From contig NZ_JAQPCN010000003.1 in the NCBI RefSeq assembly GCF_028464225.1, positions 1 through 64,000 on the forward strand: 64,000 nucleotides of DNA. Reading direction: 5' to 3'. Below, one piece after another: positions 51,612 to 58,291 of this stretch. This DNA is from Zeaxanthinibacter sp. PT1. Lineage in GTDB: Bacteria; Bacteroidota; Bacteroidia; Flavobacteriales; Flavobacteriaceae. Both the position numbers and the translations under genes were made by a program. Below the pieces are notes generated by a model. It had not been told where the DNA came from, did not search any database, and saw only the letters and a list, made by a program, of their open reading frames with translations. The first letter of the stretch is position 1, and each line of letters begins with the position of its first letter.

Positions 51612-52376
51612 CTAGCGAATTCTTTTAACAAAATCACCTGCAGAATCCGCACCGTTTTCCGTAAGATACTTGATAAAAGCCGAGCCGATTATAGCACCTT
51701 TTGTATGCTCCGTTGCCTGGGCGAAGGTCTCTGCGTTGCTGATTCCGAAGCCGGCAATCAATGGATTACGAAGTCCCATAGCAGCAATTCGCTTAAAATA
51801 ATCCTGCTGATCCTGTCCAAAACCGGACTTAGCTCCCGTAGTACTCGCGGAACTGACCAGGTATAAAAAGCCATTGGAGGCGGCATCAATCTCCCTGATA
51901 CGTTCATCACTTGTCTGGGGGGTGATCAGGAATATGTTGAGTAATCCGTAAGCATCAAAAATCTCTTTGTATTGTAATTGGTATTCCCGGAGTGGAAGAT
52001 CCGGTAAAATAAGCCCGTCTATACCGATCTCCCGGCACTTCTTACAAAACGCTTCCACACCGTATTGCAATACCGGGTTAAAGTAGCCCATGATAATCAG
52101 GGGGATAGACACCTTTTCGCGAATGCCCTGCAACTGGGAGAACAGCTTTTCCGTGGTCATACCATGTGTCAGGGCATGGGTAGAGCTTTCCTGTATCGTA
52201 GGCCCATCCGCAAGCGGATCGCTGAAGGGGAGTCCTATCTCTATCATATCTACCCCGTGTTCTTCCAGGGATTGGATGATTTTTACCGTATCACCATGTT
52301 GCGGGTAGCCCGCGGTAAAATATATGGATAGAAGCTTTTTATCTTCCTGGAGTTTTGTCTGTATCCTGTTCATCAT
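51612..52376 (-). CDS. trpA: Tryptophan synthase alpha subunit
   Basis: This 254-aa TIM-barrel subunit cleaves indole-3-glycerol phosphate to indole and passes it through a tunnel to TrpB. The catalytic Glu lies in MIEIGLPFSDPLADGP and the Asp in IDGLILPDLP; the C-terminal phosphate site is GFGISNAE and GAIIGSAF. ATG 52376 is preferred; a TTG two codons upstream is less likely, and 52373 is also possible. It is the last gene of the trp operon, 17 bp after trpB. Confidence 0.97.
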   Translation of the reverse strand: MMNRIQTKLQEDKKLLSIYFTAGYPQHGDTVKIIQSLEEHGVDMIEIGLPFSDPLADGPTIQESSTHALTHGMTTEKLFSQLQGIREKVSIPLIIMGYFNPVLQYGVEAFCKKCREIGIDGLILPDLPLREYQLQYKEIFDAYGLLNIFLITPQTSDERIREIDAASNGFLYLVSSASTTGAKSGFGQDQQDYFKRIAAMGLRNPLIAGFGISNAETFAQATEHTKGAIIGSAFIKYLTENGADSAGDFVKRIR

Positions 52377-52393
52377 ACTCAATGCAAAAATCT

Positions 52394-53575
52394 TTATAGT
52401 TTAAAATAGTCGATATAGGTTTGCAGGTCCTTGTCTCCACGCCCGGATAGGTTGATCACGACAAGGTCATCGGCCTTGAATTTCCTTTTCTCAAATATGG
52501 CAAAGGCGTGTGCAGTTTCAATAGCGGGAATAATACCTTCTAAACGGGCCAGCATACGCCCTGCTTTCATGGCTTCATCATCGGTAATGGAAATAAATTC
52601 TCCCCTCCCGGAGGCGTAGAGATGTGCATGCATAGGTCCCACTCCCGGGTAATCCAGTCCGGCAGAAATGGAATAGGGTTCAGTGATTTGCCCGTCAGGA
52701 GTCTGCATCAGCAAGGTCTTACTGCCATGGATGATGCCGGTTTTCCCAAGGTAAGAAGTTGCCGCACTTTCCCCTGAATCCACTCCTTTCCCTGCCGCTT
52801 CTACAGCGATCAGTCCTACTTGGGTATCATCGAGGTAGTGGTAATAGGCTCCGGCTGCATTACTGCCTCCGCCTACACAGGCAACTACGTAGTCCGGACG
52901 CGACCGGCCTTCCTTTTCCTGAAGTTGTGCCTTGATCTCGGCAGAGATCACCGACTGGAATCGCGCCACCATATCGGGGTAGGGGTGAGGTCCGACCACA
53001 GAGCCGATAATATAATGGGTGTCTACTGGGTTGTTGATCCAGTCCCTGATGGCTTCGTTGGTGGCATCCTTAAGGGTCTTGCTACCCGAATTCGCCGCTC
53101 TTACCGTCGCTCCAAGCATTTTCATACGGGCGACATTAGGGGCCTGCCTTTCAATATCTACGGTACCCATATAAACGATGCACTCCATGCCCATTAAAGC
53201 GCAGACGGTGGCGGTTGCTACCCCGTGCTGGCCCGCACCTGTTTCTGCAATGATCCGCTGTTTGCCAAGGCGCTTTGCAAGTAATATCTGCCCAATGGTA
53301 TTATTTACCTTATGAGCCCCGGTGTGGCATAGGTCTTCTCGTTTCAGATATATCCGGGTGCCACAATGTTCGGAAAGCCTGCTCGCATAGTACAAGGGGG
53401 TAGGCCTGCCTACATAGTCTCTCAGGAGATCGTTAAATTCTTTCTCAAAGACAGGGTCTTGCATGATCTGTAGGTATTGCTGCCTGATCTCCTCCGTATT
53501 CGGGTATAACATTTCCGGGATATATGCTCCCCCGAACTCCCCGTAATAACCATTCTCATCTACATTGTAAGTCAT
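52394..53575 (-). CDS. trpB: Tryptophan synthase beta subunit
   Basis: The 393-aa PLP enzyme condenses indole with serine to make tryptophan. The Schiff-base lysine is in [15 protein letters not shown], the catalytic Glu in ETGAGQHGV, and the phosphate-binding loop is GGGSNAAG. The sequence is a TrpB1-type, paired with TrpA. It follows trpF by 12 bp and precedes trpA by 17 bp. Confidence 0.98.
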
Positions 53576-53587
53576 CGTAAAATAGTT

Positions 53588-54226
53588 TTATTGCCCTGAG
53601 GCGAGTACTCCTTTAAATTTTATTAAATCAGCTATATTCTTTTCACCCGGCCTGGTTTCAAACCTGCTGTTCACATCCAGGGCATGGCAGTTTTTTGCTT
53701 CCGGTTTCTGCAGGAAATCACGAACGGATTCCATATCTCCCGGCCCTATTCCACCGGACAGGAAAAAAGGCTTCTTTGATGGGTACCCTCGCAGTAATGT
53801 CCAGTCAAAGGAATAACTGTTTCCCCCGGGAAGTTTACCCTTGGTATCAAAAAGATAAAAATCACATATTTCTTCAAAAGGCGACAATTGTTCAAAATTA
53901 AAAGAAGTTCCCACCGAAAAAACTTTTATGATCTTCACATTATTTTCAAGAGCTGTAAAAGCTTCTTGTAATGCGCTGCAGAAAGCAGGACTCTCACCGC
54001 CGTGAAGTTGTACCAGCTGCAGCCCAAATTCGTTTACCCTTTTAACAACCTCTTCGATGGACGCGTTAACAAAAACACCAACTTTCTCTATTCCCGTCGA
54101 TAATTTGGGCATATCGCCCTGGAAGTAGCGGCTGGATGGCTCCCAGAAAATAAACCCGAGATAATCGGGTTGTAAGGTGGCAACCTCGGCCGTATTATAA
54201 TTCATCCCGCAGACTTTCAGTTTCAT
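53588..54226 (-). CDS. trpF: Phosphoribosylanthranilate isomerase
   Basis: This 212-aa TIM-barrel enzyme performs the Amadori rearrangement of phosphoribosyl anthranilate. The catalytic Cys is in MKLKVCGM at the N-terminus; LVQLHGGES, YLFDTKG and LSGGIGPGD match the family, with the general-acid Asp in DTKG. Its ATG overlaps the trpC stop by four bases (ATGA), so translation is coupled. Separate trpF and trpC genes contrast with the fused TrpCF of enterobacteria. Confidence 0.95.
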   Translation of the reverse strand: MKLKVCGMNYNTAEVATLQPDYLGFIFWEPSSRYFQGDMPKLSTGIEKVGVFVNASIEEVVKRVNEFGLQLVQLHGGESPAFCSALQEAFTALENNVKIIKVFSVGTSFNFEQLSPFEEICDFYLFDTKGKLPGGNSYSFDWTLLRGYPSKKPFFLSGGIGPGDMESVRDFLQKPEAKNCHALDVNSRFETRPGEKNIADLIKFKGVLASGQ

Positions 54227-55008
54227 GAGTTCAATTCTTTTATAAAAGAAGATGCAGCCCCACCGGGATCTGCTGTTTTCATAAAATTTTCACCTACCAG
54301 GAAACCCTTATACCCATAGTCTCTTAATTCTTTGATAGCGTCAGTATTGCTGATGCCGCTTTCAGATACCTTGACAAAATCATTGGGGATATGTACTGCG
54401 AGTTCCTTGCTGGTCTCAAGGCTGACCTCAAAGTTCTTTAAATCCCGGTTGTTAACTCCCAGCATATCAAGGCTGGGCATCAATGATTTTTCCAGCTCCT
54501 CCCGGTTATGGACCTCCAGGAGTACTTCCAGACCAAGTTCTTTGGCAAACCGGGATAACTCGGCAATCCGGGTCCTGCTGAGCACTGCCGCGATAAGCAG
54601 GATTACATCTGCCCCGAAAGCCTTGGCTTCCAGCAGCTGGTATTCATCCACGATAAATTCTTTTCGCAGCAGGGGAGTCTCCACAGAAGCGCGTGCCACA
54701 AGCAGGTCTTCCAGGGATCCGCCAAAATAAGGGGTGTCTGTTAACACTGAAATACCGCAGACTCCTGCATGCTCGTATCCCTTGACCACATCCCATACCT
54801 TGAGGTCATTGTTGATGACCGATTTGGAAGGAGATCTGCGTTTGTGTTCCGCAATGATCCCGCTGCTGCTTTTACGCAAGGCAGCCGCCATTGAAAATAC
54901 AGGCCTCGCAAACAACATGGCCTGTTCCAGTTGCACCGGTGGCACCAGGCTTTTCTTAAATGCCAGTTCACGTTTTTTGTCGACAATTATCTTATCCAAT
55001 ATGTTCAT
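54223..55008 (-). CDS. trpC: Indole-3-glycerol-phosphate synthase
   Basis: The 261-aa TIM-barrel enzyme closes the indole ring. Motifs IIAEHKRRSPSKSVI and LRKEFIVDEYQL contain the catalytic Lys residues, and LGVNNRDLKNFEV and SESGIS are conserved. It overlaps trpD and trpF by four bases on each side, a tightly coupled arrangement. Confidence 0.97.
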   Translation of the reverse strand: MNILDKIIVDKKRELAFKKSLVPPVQLEQAMLFARPVFSMAAALRKSSSGIIAEHKRRSPSKSVINNDLKVWDVVKGYEHAGVCGISVLTDTPYFGGSLEDLLVARASVETPLLRKEFIVDEYQLLEAKAFGADVILLIAAVLSRTRIAELSRFAKELGLEVLLEVHNREELEKSLMPSLDMLGVNNRDLKNFEVSLETSKELAVHIPNDFVKVSESGISNTDAIKELRDYGYKGFLVGENFMKTADPGGAASSFIKELNS

Positions 55009-56000
55009 CGCTTACTTACTTCTTGTAGTTTTCTAAGTGCTTCCAATGCTTTACCGCTCATCAAGGATTCCTTTGCCTTTTCAAAACCCTCAAGCGGGCT
55101 GATACCTTCTACGGTTGCAATGGCAATCCCTGCATTGGCACAGACCACGTTATTCTGTTCTTCCGATCCCTTAGCTTGTAGAATATCGAGGAAGATACGG
55201 GCAGATCCGGCAATATCTTCGCCTCCTTCGATCGCTTTGGCAGATACCGGGTTTACCCCGAAATCTGCAGGTTCCAGCATAGCTTCGGTGCGGTTAGAAA
55301 TAGTTTTGGTGGTGCCGGTCAGGGAAATTTCATCATAACCATCCAGGGCGTGGAGGACGGTGAAATTCTTATCGGTATTCTGGTAAAGGTATCCATACAT
55401 CCTCGCCAGTTCCAAGTTAAATACCCCGACAATCTGGTTCCTCGGAAAAGCGGGGTTCACCATAGGCCCCAGCATATTAAAAAAGGTTTTTACCGCAAGC
55501 TCACGGCGGATAGGAGCTACATTTTTCATTGCCGGGTGAAAGAGCGGTGCATGTAAGACACAGATTCCGGCTTCGTCCATAGATCTCTTCAGAAAATCCT
55601 TTTCGCTGCTGAATTTAATGCCCAGGTATTCCATCACATTACTGCTGCCACAGGTTGAGGAAACTCCGTAGTTACCGTGTTTTGTCACCGGGATACCGGT
55701 TCCTGCAGTAACAAACGAAGCCAGGGTAGAAATGTTGAAAGTATCTTTACCGTCACCCCCGGTTCCGCAGAGGTCTATAGGGTCGTATTCGGACAGGTCT
55801 ACCGAATGACAGAGGTCCAAAAGAGCATCACGGAAACCCTCCAATTCGTCTATGGTGACACTGCGCATCATATAAACCGTCAGGAATGCGGCGATCTGGC
55901 TTGAGTTGTAGGCGCCATTCGCAATATTCACCAATACCTGCCGGGCATCGTCCTTGGAGAGAACATCGTAATTAATTAACCTGTTGAGGATCGTTTTCAT
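55005..56000 (-). CDS. trpD: Anthranilate phosphoribosyltransferase
   Basis: This 331-aa enzyme transfers a phosphoribosyl group from PRPP to anthranilate. The PRPP-binding loop DLCGTGGDGKDTFNIST and KHGNYGVSSTCGSSNVME, and the anthranilate site near RRELAVKTFFNMLGPM, are intact. It lies 8 bp after trpG and overlaps trpC by four bases. Confidence 0.97.
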   Translation of the reverse strand: MKTILNRLINYDVLSKDDARQVLVNIANGAYNSSQIAAFLTVYMMRSVTIDELEGFRDALLDLCHSVDLSEYDPIDLCGTGGDGKDTFNISTLASFVTAGTGIPVTKHGNYGVSSTCGSSNVMEYLGIKFSSEKDFLKRSMDEAGICVLHAPLFHPAMKNVAPIRRELAVKTFFNMLGPMVNPAFPRNQIVGVFNLELARMYGYLYQNTDKNFTVLHALDGYDEISLTGTTKTISNRTEAMLEPADFGVNPVSAKAIEGGEDIAGSARIFLDILQAKGSEEQNNVVCANAGIAIATVEGISPLEGFEKAKESLMSGKALEALRKLQEVSKR

Positions 56001-56008
56001 AGTAAGGA

Positions 56009-56599
56009 CTATTTATGAGTTGCCGCAGGAGTTTTCCCGGCCTTTACCCAGTTCTCTATTAATTTTTTACCGTGGGGTGTCAGAACAGATTCCGGATGGA
56101 ACTGAACTGCCCTAACATCGTATTCTCTATGCCTGAGGGACATCACCTGCCCATCTTCGGCCACGGATGTAGCTTCCAGGCAGTCCGGTAGATCGGGATT
56201 CACTACCCACGAATGATAGCGGCCCACCTCCAGGGTTTCCGGAAGCCCATTAAAAAGTACCTCTTCACAGAGTACCCTGATCTTAGTGGCTACGCCGTGG
56301 TATACCTGGTCCAGGTTGATAAGGCTGCCGCCAAAGACCTCTCCTATGGCTTGCTGGCCCAGGCAAACCCCGAAAATACTTTTGGTGGGAGCGTAAGTGG
56401 CGATGATCTCCTTTAATAGACCGGCTTCTTCCGGTATTCCGGGACCCGGAGAAAGGACGATCTTATCAAAAGCCGCAACCTCTTCCAGTTTCAGCTGATC
56501 ATTCCGTTTAACGATCACTTCACAATCCATAGCTTCCAGGTAGTGCACCAGGTTATAAGTGAAACTATCGTAATTATCGATGACTAATATTCTGTTCAT
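56009..56599 (-). CDS. trpG: Anthranilate synthase component II (glutamine amidotransferase)
   Basis: The 196-aa subunit hydrolyses glutamine and channels ammonia to TrpE. The class I GATase triad is visible: Cys in GVCLGQQAIGE, His and Glu in QFHPESV; the oxyanion strand is SPGPGIPEE. It may also serve para-aminobenzoate synthesis, as TrpG does in some bacteria, because no pabA is in this window. It follows trpE by 20 bp. Confidence 0.96.
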   Translation of the reverse strand: MNRILVIDNYDSFTYNLVHYLEAMDCEVIVKRNDQLKLEEVAAFDKIVLSPGPGIPEEAGLLKEIIATYAPTKSIFGVCLGQQAIGEVFGGSLINLDQVYHGVATKIRVLCEEVLFNGLPETLEVGRYHSWVVNPDLPDCLEATSVAEDGQVMSLRHREYDVRAVQFHPESVLTPHGKKLIENWVKAGKTPAATHK

Positions 56600-56619: not shown

Positions 56620-58017
56620 TTATATGGTTTCAGCTATTTCCATCGCCTTATTCAGTGCCCCCAGCTTGTTGTAGACCTCCTGCAGCTCTGATGCCGGTTC
56701 CGAGGCTGCTACCAAACCTGCTCCGGCCTGGTAATGTAACTCGTGGTTCTTACTCAGGAAGGTGCGGATCATGATCGCATGGTTAAAATTGCCATTAAAG
56801 TCCATAAACCCGATGGCTCCCCCGTAATAAGCACGGTTTGTGGGTTCGTAATCCTCAATCAGCTGCATGGCCCTGTGCTTCGGAGCTCCACTAAGGGTGC
56901 CGGCAGGGAAAGTGTCTGCAACCACATCCATTGTAGGGGTGTCCTTTTTCTTTTGCCCGGTGACCTTGGAAACCAAGTGGATAACATGAGAGAAATATTG
57001 TACTTCCCTGTAATTTTCTACAATGACATTATTGCCGTGCCTGCTGAGGTCATTTCGGGCAAGATCTACCAGCATGACATGTTCACTGTTTTCCTTGGCA
57101 TCTTCGGTGAGTTTCTTGGCCAGCCTTGCATCTTCTTCGTCATTCCCGGTACGCTTAAAAGTTCCTGCAATCGGGTGTATCTCGGCCTTCCCTTCCTTGA
57201 CCACCAACTGTGCCTCCGGTGAACTGCCAAATATCTTGAAGTTCCCATAATCAAAATAAAAGAGGTAAGGAGAGGGGTTAACGGATCTCAATGCCCGGTA
57301 CACATTAAACTCGTCACCCTTAAATTTCTGGGAAAACCTTTTAGAGAGTACCAATTGGAAAACGTCGCCCCGACCACAGTGTTTTTTAGCAATTTCTACC
57401 TTCTCCATATAGGCCTCATCACTGAGGTTGGAAGAGGCGTCCCCTTCCCTCCGGAAATCAAAAGCCGCAAAGTTTTTTACATTCAATATACGCTCTAGCT
57501 CAGGGATATTATTTTCAGACTCGTAGCAATGTGCAAAGAGGTAAGCTTCATTCTTAAAATGATTGATCGCGATTATATTCTGGTATACCGCGTAATAGAT
57601 ATCCGGGATATCTAGGTTGCCTTCTTTTTTTTGAATAGAGACATCTTCAAAATAGCGGACCGCGTCATAAGCCATATACCCAAAAAGCCCATTATTGATA
57701 AACTTAAATCCATTATTCTGGGCTTTGAACTGCTGGCTAAAATCATGGATGATAGAAGGGATATTATCCCCTGCAGTAATGGCCTTTTCTTTAATGCTTC
57801 CGTCAGGGAATTTCCATTTAATTTTTTCGTCCTGTATACTGATCGATGCTATAGGGTTGCAGCAGACATAAGAGAACGTATTGTCATTTGCCCTGTAGTC
57901 ACTGCTTTCTAGCAATAAACTGTGGGGAAACCGATCCCGGATCTTCAGGTATACACTAACCGGGGTAATGGTATCGGCCAGTATCTTTTTATGATATGTT
58001 TTTAATTGATATGCCAT
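56620..58017 (-). CDS. trpE: Anthranilate synthase component I
   Basis: This 465-aa chorismate-using enzyme is the first and feedback-controlled step of tryptophan synthesis. Chorismate-site motifs HPIAGTFKRTG, GNVIVENYR and GAPKHRAMQLI are conserved, as is the LLES(S) element near residue 36 that forms part of the Trp feedback site. The ATG at 58017 follows a 176-nt leader that holds a Trp-codon leader peptide and an attenuator, so expression is probably regulated by tryptophan charging. It is the first structural gene of trpEGDCFBA. Confidence 0.97.
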   Translation of the reverse strand: MAYQLKTYHKKILADTITPVSVYLKIRDRFPHSLLLESSDYRANDNTFSYVCCNPIASISIQDEKIKWKFPDGSIKEKAITAGDNIPSIIHDFSQQFKAQNNGFKFINNGLFGYMAYDAVRYFEDVSIQKKEGNLDIPDIYYAVYQNIIAINHFKNEAYLFAHCYESENNIPELERILNVKNFAAFDFRREGDASSNLSDEAYMEKVEIAKKHCGRGDVFQLVLSKRFSQKFKGDEFNVYRALRSVNPSPYLFYFDYGNFKIFGSSPEAQLVVKEGKAEIHPIAGTFKRTGNDEEDARLAKKLTEDAKENSEHVMLVDLARNDLSRHGNNVIVENYREVQYFSHVIHLVSKVTGQKKKDTPTMDVVADTFPAGTLSGAPKHRAMQLIEDYEPTNRAYYGGAIGFMDFNGNFNHAIMIRTFLSKNHELHYQAGAGLVAASEPASELQEVYNKLGALNKAMEIAETI

Positions 58018-58076: not shown

Positions 58077-58108
58077 AAAAAGGCTTGTCGTGATTGACAA
58101 GCCTTTTT
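58077..58108 (-). terminator. Attenuator terminator of the trp operon
   Basis: A perfect 13-bp stem (AAAAAGGCTTGTC / GACAAGCCTTTTT, loop of six) with a U run at its end on the minus strand. It lies 28 nt after the leader-peptide stop and 59 nt before the trpE ATG, the usual position for a transcription attenuator. Confidence 0.85.
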
Positions 58109-58136
58109 GTACAGTACAGATACAAGGGTGCTTAGC

Positions 58137-58193
58137 TCACGACTTCAGACGTAAGTTTTTCCACCACCATGTATGTACTGTAGATATTTTCAT
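58137..58193 (-). CDS. trpL: trp leader peptide with three consecutive Trp codons
   Basis: An 18-codon frame MKISTVHTWWWKNLRLKS ends at TGA (58139-58137). Three Trp codons (TGG, 58169-58161) in a row in 18 residues are very improbable by chance and identify an attenuation leader. It lies directly after a perfect -7 promoter box and before an intrinsic terminator, and precedes trpE. Ribosome stalling at the Trp codons when charged tRNA-Trp is scarce would favour readthrough. No Shine-Dalgarno precedes it; the transcript may start almost at the ATG. Confidence 0.85.
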   Translation of the reverse strand: MKISTVHTWWWKNLRLKS

Positions 58194-58198
58194 AGCCT

Positions 58199-58206
58199 CA
58201 AATATA
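58199..58206 (-). promoter_or_regulatory. -7 box of the trp operon
   Basis: TATATTTG on the minus strand, a perfect TAnnTTTG match, five bases before the leader-peptide ATG (58193). No TTG box was found at 17-23 bases upstream. Confidence 0.65.
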
Positions 58207-58237: not shown

Positions 58238-58268
58238 AAAAAAAAAATCCGGACCCTTTTACCGGATC
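58238..58268 (-). terminator. Intrinsic terminator of the marR-yceI operon
   Basis: ATCCGG / CCGGAT hairpin (58248-58267) followed on the minus strand by ten T. It lies after the YceI stop and insulates the trp promoter. Confidence 0.75.
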
Positions 58269-58291
58269 CGGATCAATATCATAGCTGATGA

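Follow-up and report, generated by a model that had tools for sequence, protein, structure and literature searches.

A predicted composite antiterminator in the RF01692 trp leader of Zeaxanthinibacter sp. PT1 and its relatives

Introduction

The trpL attenuator of E. coli has a leader peptide with Trp codons, a strand that can be masked, and an antiterminator that competes with the terminator. In Sinorhizobium, a leaderless trp leader has been described: the leader RNA of S. meliloti, trpL or rnTrpL, is made by attenuation and starts with the ATG of a short ORF upstream of trpE(G) (PMC7298713). In Flavobacterium psychrophilum, leader-peptide attenuation ahead of amino acid operons has been inferred from structured 5′ leaders (PMC9723704). 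Rfam family RF01692, “Bacteroid-trp”, which lies ahead of trp genes and includes a Trp-codon ORF, was catalogued in 2010 as a cis-regulatory motif of the Bacteroidetes (Weinberg et al. 2010, PMC2864571) and was later mentioned upstream of the F. psychrophilum trp operon (PMC6414381). Our search for an earlier account of its mechanism, with supplements and most subscription journals outside its scope, gave only the 2010 catalogue entry and passing mentions.

Here we describe the trp leader of Zeaxanthinibacter sp. PT1, a marine bacterium of the Flavobacteriaceae whose closest named relative is Eudoraea (TrpE identity 82%). Positions refer to the window, the whole 64,000-nucleotide stretch of DNA that was analysed, and all elements of the leader lie on its minus strand. 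We hold, with a probability of about 0.9, that the leader is a ribosome-mediated transcription attenuator of the trp operon, a member of RF01692 with a composite antiterminator.

The locus and its relatives

The segment 58213–58096 matches the RF01692 covariance model at 69.1 bits, against a gathering cut-off of 49, and no other Rfam family scores above threshold at the leader. RF01692 is present in 154 of 199 sampled Flavobacteriaceae genomes and in 53 of 395 sampled from the phylum Bacteroidota. In keeping with the place of the family ahead of trp biosynthesis genes in Bacteroidota, the leader heads a complete trpEGDCFBA operon, with trpE (56620–58017, minus strand) first and trpG, trpD, trpC, trpF, trpB, and trpA following at 51612–56599 (minus strand). 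The best NCBIfam match of TrpE is anthranilate synthase component I, at 432 bits, which is below the 518-bit cut-off of that model; the gene is called trpE by context. Upstream, the terminator of a YceI-family gene (58246–58274, minus strand) would shield the trp promoter from read-through. The 129-nt leader folds at −47.8 kcal/mol against a shuffle mean of −23.6 (z = −7.2), and none of 200 shuffles was equally stable.

The RF01692 model resembles this locus in its position ahead of trp genes and in its Trp-codon ORF. It spans the region from about 20 nt 5′ of the leader ATG to the 5′ arm of the terminator, and because it starts that far before the ATG, it includes promoter DNA. The model has neither the terminator hairpin nor the antiterminator, whereas both are predicted here.

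Regions 5′ of trpE were gathered from about 140 genera and from 80 named genomes. Of 240 loci, 224 have a leader that combines Trp codons with a terminator, or 208 once identical copies are removed; since the two collections share taxa, these 208 relatives do not amount to that many independent lineages. The whole leader arrangement is conserved across Flavobacteriaceae.

Leader peptide, terminator, and the helices P1 and P2

The leader ORF (58193–58137) begins with the ATG at 58193 and encodes a peptide of 18 codons, MKISTVHTWWWKNLRLKS, with its TGA stop at 58139–58137. Codons 9 to 11 are TGG TGG TGG (58169–58161), so that the locus shows the short ORF and consecutive Trp codons of an E. coli-type attenuator. 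By itself, TGGTGGTGG is unremarkable, being expected 0.44 times per window by chance. Among the relatives, 197 of 208 have the first Trp of the run at codon 9, and 203 have three Trp codons; the start codon is likewise ATG in 203, and the commonest peptide lengths are 15, 18, or 20 codons. Apart from NTWWW, the peptide sequence differs between genera.

Between the leader ORF and trpE, again as in E. coli-type attenuators, lies an intrinsic terminator (58109–58076) with the loop AATCAC. Its arms, AAAAAGGCTTGTC (58108–58096) and GACAAGCCTTTTT (58089–58077), pair over 13 bp, or 14 counting an outer C-G pair, and GGCTTGTC ends the 5′ arm in 179 of the 208 relatives. Given the Trp run at codon 9 in nearly all relatives and the terminator downstream, classical ribosome-mediated trp attenuation is well supported. 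A sequence-only reading of this DNA had proposed a trp attenuator with a leader peptide, and the RF01692 match, the full trp operon downstream, and the retention of Trp codons and terminator among relatives bear this out; each base and coordinate in that description proved correct when checked directly on the minus strand.

Two further helices are predicted in the ribosome-free fold, together with the terminator. In P1, leader codons 4 to 7 (58182–58174) pair with the bases immediately 5′ of the terminator (58118–58110). This perfect 9-bp pairing, drawn already in the sequence-only reading, is part of the minimum-energy fold and has a duplex energy of −13.1 kcal/mol in the window. P1 is strong in the distant families f11 and f12 and in Flavobacterium-type leaders, and weak in many close relatives; we rejected it as a universal feature, the mean for Flavobacteriaceae (−4.7 kcal/mol) being only slightly better than that for shuffles (−3.5). 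In P2, CUUACG (58155–58150) pairs with CGUGAG (58141–58136). The P2 region has a mean of −5.1 kcal/mol in the 208 relatives against −1.9 for shuffles, and the helix would sequester the antiterminator strand when no ribosome masks P2.

A predicted composite antiterminator

The predicted antiterminator has three parts. Its outer helix joins GUCGUGA (58143–58137), which overlaps both the leader stop codon and P2, to UCACGAC (58093–58087), which is the terminator loop plus the top of the 3′ arm; conservation and covariation point to this pairing. Its middle helix, taken from the minimum-energy fold of the stalled state, joins UAAGC (58134–58130) to GCUUG in the terminator 5′ arm (58102–58098), and the predicted fold also holds an inner hairpin. 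A MAFFT alignment of the region gave a consensus fold with the outer helix only, because the middle of the antiterminator varies in length, and individual folds were used instead. With the segments folded in isolation, 198 of 205 Flavobacteriaceae sequences form at least five outer pairs, and every one of the 205 forms three or more with the 5′ arm; among distant members, both sets of pairs occur in 59 of 59. The 5′ segment of the antiterminator is never far from the stop codon (about 15 nt at most), including in leaders where this segment is noncoding.

Judged from the sequences, compensatory changes preserve the outer helix throughout the phylum. Six of its positions are paired in 94–99% of the 208 Flavobacteriaceae sequences. 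Since the helix is nearly invariant within the family, permutation tests restricted to Flavobacteriaceae give little signal, and distant families were therefore added, so that the covariation rests on them and on a few family members. Position 6 is G-C in 193 of 208 Flavobacteriaceae and A-U in 46 of 60 sequences of two distant families, where it corresponds to the second base of the TGA or TAA stop. It is paired in 254 of 268 sequences, whereas permutations, which ignore kinship, average 217.7 (p ≤ 0.0002). Compensations within single lineages do not depend on relatedness: L146 has an altered 10-bp helix, UUGUCGCAAU/AUUGCGACAA; L132 has UCGUAAAC/GUUUACGA; L225 has CUGUGAG/UUCACAG; and L292 and L295 combine a TAG stop with a matching change in the terminator loop. 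In the families f2, f3, and f5, whose sequences are divergent, the stop-codon segment still pairs with the upper part of the terminator, for the most part with its 5′ arm; over 12 sequences, the mean is −11.4 kcal/mol, whereas shuffles give −6.6.

States of the ribosome

We made a state calculation in which ribosome-covered bases are barred from pairing while the transcript is extended stepwise, assuming that the ribosome covers about −17 to +13 relative to the A site and that RNA polymerase occludes about 12 nt. For the leader in the window, a ribosome on Trp codons 9 to 11 gives the antiterminator a probability of 0.98–1.00 at emerged lengths of 107–110. With the ribosome absent or at the stop, that probability is 0.00 and the top of the terminator forms. 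Once the complete terminator has emerged, it is thermodynamically favored over the antiterminator in every state; therefore, the switch must be kinetic, acting before the 3′ arm exits the polymerase.

The relatives behave similarly at the assumed decision point, where at least four antiterminator pairs form in 198 of 208 in the stalled state and in 0 of 208 with the ribosome at the stop. Family-wide, the antiterminator makes a mean of 6.8 pairs with the loop and 3′ arm when the ribosome is stalled, 1.9 when it is absent, and 0.0 when it is at the stop. Contrary to the model, the antiterminator is also predicted in 48 of the 208 relatives in the ribosome-free state. An antiterminator that excludes the terminator, is freed by a ribosome at the Trp codons, and is covered by one at the stop, as in E. 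coli, is thus indicated by prediction and covariation.

Promoter and predicted transcript start

Bacteroidota promoters combine a TAnnTTTG element at −7 with a TTTG around −33 (as quoted in PMC7366714). A primary sigma factor promoter with the −7 box TATATTTG (58206–58199) is separated from the ATG at 58193 by five bases, AGGCT; the −33 position (58229–58226), placed 19 nt before the −7 box by the spacing in relatives, reads ATGG and matches TTTG at two of four bases. TAnnTTTG precedes the leader start in 199 of 208 relatives, 102 of the 208 having TTTG at exactly 19 nt (TTTG-N19-TAnnTTTG). In F. psychrophilum, the −7 box spans −12 to −5 relative to the transcript start (PMC9723704), and with this geometry, a spacing of 5 nt corresponds to a 5′ UTR of 0–1 nt, with a predicted start at 58194–58193. 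The combination TAnnTTTG-N5-ATG is expected 0.93 times per window by chance and, alone, is unremarkable.

Among the relatives, the box-to-ATG spacing, counted once for each of the 134 genera with a box, clusters narrowly at 5 nt (30 genera) and more loosely at 17–19 nt (43), with 46 genera at 3–8 nt, 19 at 9–12 nt, and 69 at 13 nt or more. When the short and long labels are placed on the TrpE tree, 5 changes are needed against 12.8 with shuffled labels, and all 46 scored leaders on the side of the tree that holds the window fall in the 3–8 nt class. About half of Flavobacteriaceae genera, unlike this clade, have the long spacing, i.e., a short UTR. The leaderless start anticipated from the sequence alone accordingly gains comparative support as a prediction, the box geometry giving a UTR of 0–1 nt and the short spacing being kept in the clade, and translation of the leader peptide probably begins at the first nucleotide of the transcript.

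Model and alternatives

Setting out from the sequence, its conservation, the covariation, and the predicted energies, we infer the following course from transcript start through stalling to the tryptophan response. RNA polymerase would start 0–1 nt ahead of the leader ATG, and a ribosome would bind the 5′-terminal AUG and translate the peptide. When Trp-tRNA is plentiful, the ribosome would reach the stop and cover GUCGUGA, the terminator would form, and transcription would end before trpE. When Trp-tRNA is scarce, a ribosome stalled on codons 9 to 11 would mask the 5′ strands of P1 and P2 and leave GUCGUGA free. This strand would then pair with UCACGAC in the loop and upper 3′ arm, and UAAGC with the 5′ arm; the resulting composite antiterminator would block nucleation of the terminator, and the operon would be transcribed. 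Without ribosome loading, P1 and P2 would form and the terminator would win. The Trp-codon peptide, the masked strand, and the competition between antiterminator and terminator are common to this model and E. coli trpL; the locus differs from trpL in that its main antiterminator helix takes the terminator loop, the upper 3′ arm, and part of the 5′ arm, and in that its start is predicted to be leaderless. Its RNA is predicted to start, like that of S. meliloti, with the ATG of a short ORF; the S. meliloti leader differs in belonging to an Alphaproteobacterium, in its 14-codon peptide, and in its known trans roles (PMC7298713). With the F. psychrophilum leaders, it has in common that leader-peptide attenuation is inferred (PMC9723704).

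Several alternatives bear on parts of this model. Attenuation could be correct and the leader not leaderless, with a start further upstream, or an unused box, and a normal 5′ UTR. Leaderless mRNAs are 5.5% of those of F. psychrophilum (PMC9723704), 5′ UTRs shorter than 10 nt make up about 3.7% of those in B. thetaiotaomicron (PMC7366714), the −33 element here is degenerate, and half of Flavobacteriaceae genera have spacings of at least 13 nt. We nevertheless consider a normal UTR unlikely, as 5 nt is the single commonest spacing, the clade is uniformly in the short class, and the intrinsic terminator at 58274–58246, directly upstream, leaves little space for a second promoter. It is less likely still that the antiterminator consists solely of the bulged seven-pair helix of the sequence-only reading (58133–58124 with 58105–58099), with no helix to the terminator loop. 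That helix can be drawn, its AAGC:GCUU part belongs to the predicted stalled structure, the post-stop segment generally pairs with the terminator 5′ arm, and in the distant family f3, nearly all the pairing is with this arm. Yet the rest of the helix is absent from the predicted structure, its CTT:AAG part is missing in many relatives (e.g., GAAGTAAAACCC leaders), and GUCGUGA:UCACGAC is kept at each position with compensations. The helix drawn earlier is thus a fragment of the antiterminator, whose conserved main helix runs from the stop-codon segment to the loop and upper 3′ arm of the terminator. Aligning the trpE upstream regions of Flavobacteriaceae, a check proposed in the sequence-only reading, did confirm the Trp codons, the terminator, and an antiterminator.

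By analogy with rnTrpL and peTrpL of Sinorhizobium, the terminated leader RNA and its peptide might also act in trans. The leaderless layout, predicted here and known from S. meliloti trpL (PMC7298713), speaks for this, but the variation of the peptide outside NTWWW across genera speaks against it, and we regard such a role as very doubtful. That the leader ORF is incidental and the terminator answers to some other signal, a Trp-binding protein or a riboswitch, is hardly credible, since the Trp codons are fixed at positions 9 to 11 in nearly all relatives, the antiterminator overlaps the stop codon at which the terminating ribosome would sit, and RF01692 is the only Rfam family above threshold. 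The preferred reading is that the leader is a sound, ordinary trp attenuator of the catalogued family RF01692.

Other leaders and significance

Other leaders were seen in the same genome. Ahead of hisG, a his leader peptide, MRNQNTHHHFYTCPQAS, with His codons 7–9 is followed by a terminator (L338: 2268–2154, minus strand, contig C2 of this genome), and CGUUUGAG in the terminator is a possible pairing partner for CUCAAGCG close to the leader stop. At this locus, all Rfam families score below their gathering cut-offs. Ahead of a prephenate dehydratase gene, a Phe/Tyr-rich leader peptide, MTRTYFWNRFYFYFFYQRGTGLF, with a strong terminator (L340: 2237–2111, minus strand, contig C1 of this genome) is probably a pheA attenuator; it has no Rfam match. 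No clear ilvD leader was seen in this genome. Elsewhere, the trp leaders of Salegentibacter (L231 and L237) are extended in frame, MKANNW(H/Q)LLYFMKTITTNTWWW..., and in L231, the upstream ATG lies 5 nt past the −7 box, which would make a leaderless leader with 11 extra codons. One further genome, G724, has two RF01692 copies about 5 kb apart (L328 and L337).

We think it likely that in Maribacter, Arenibacter, Allomuricauda, Cellulophaga, Eudoraea, and their kin, the trp attenuator starts leaderless, while sister clades have a short UTR, and that the antiterminator takes the terminator loop and both arms, with the stop codon covarying with the loop. Because the distance from ATG to Trp codons is fixed in both classes, we propose to read leaderless initiation as a heritable and convertible attenuator design. 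What appears to be added to earlier knowledge is the composite antiterminator with its stop codon covarying with the terminator loop, the limits of RF01692, and the clade-wide leaderless geometry. RF01692, catalogued but with a mechanism undescribed as far as could be searched, thereby gains a specific, testable switch: the pairings in each state, the start, and the choice made by the ribosome. The results would justify redrawing the RF01692 model from the transcript start, terminator included. Bacteroidota make little use of Shine–Dalgarno sites, and in this setting, the matched attenuators offer a natural comparison of leaderless and short-UTR initiation.
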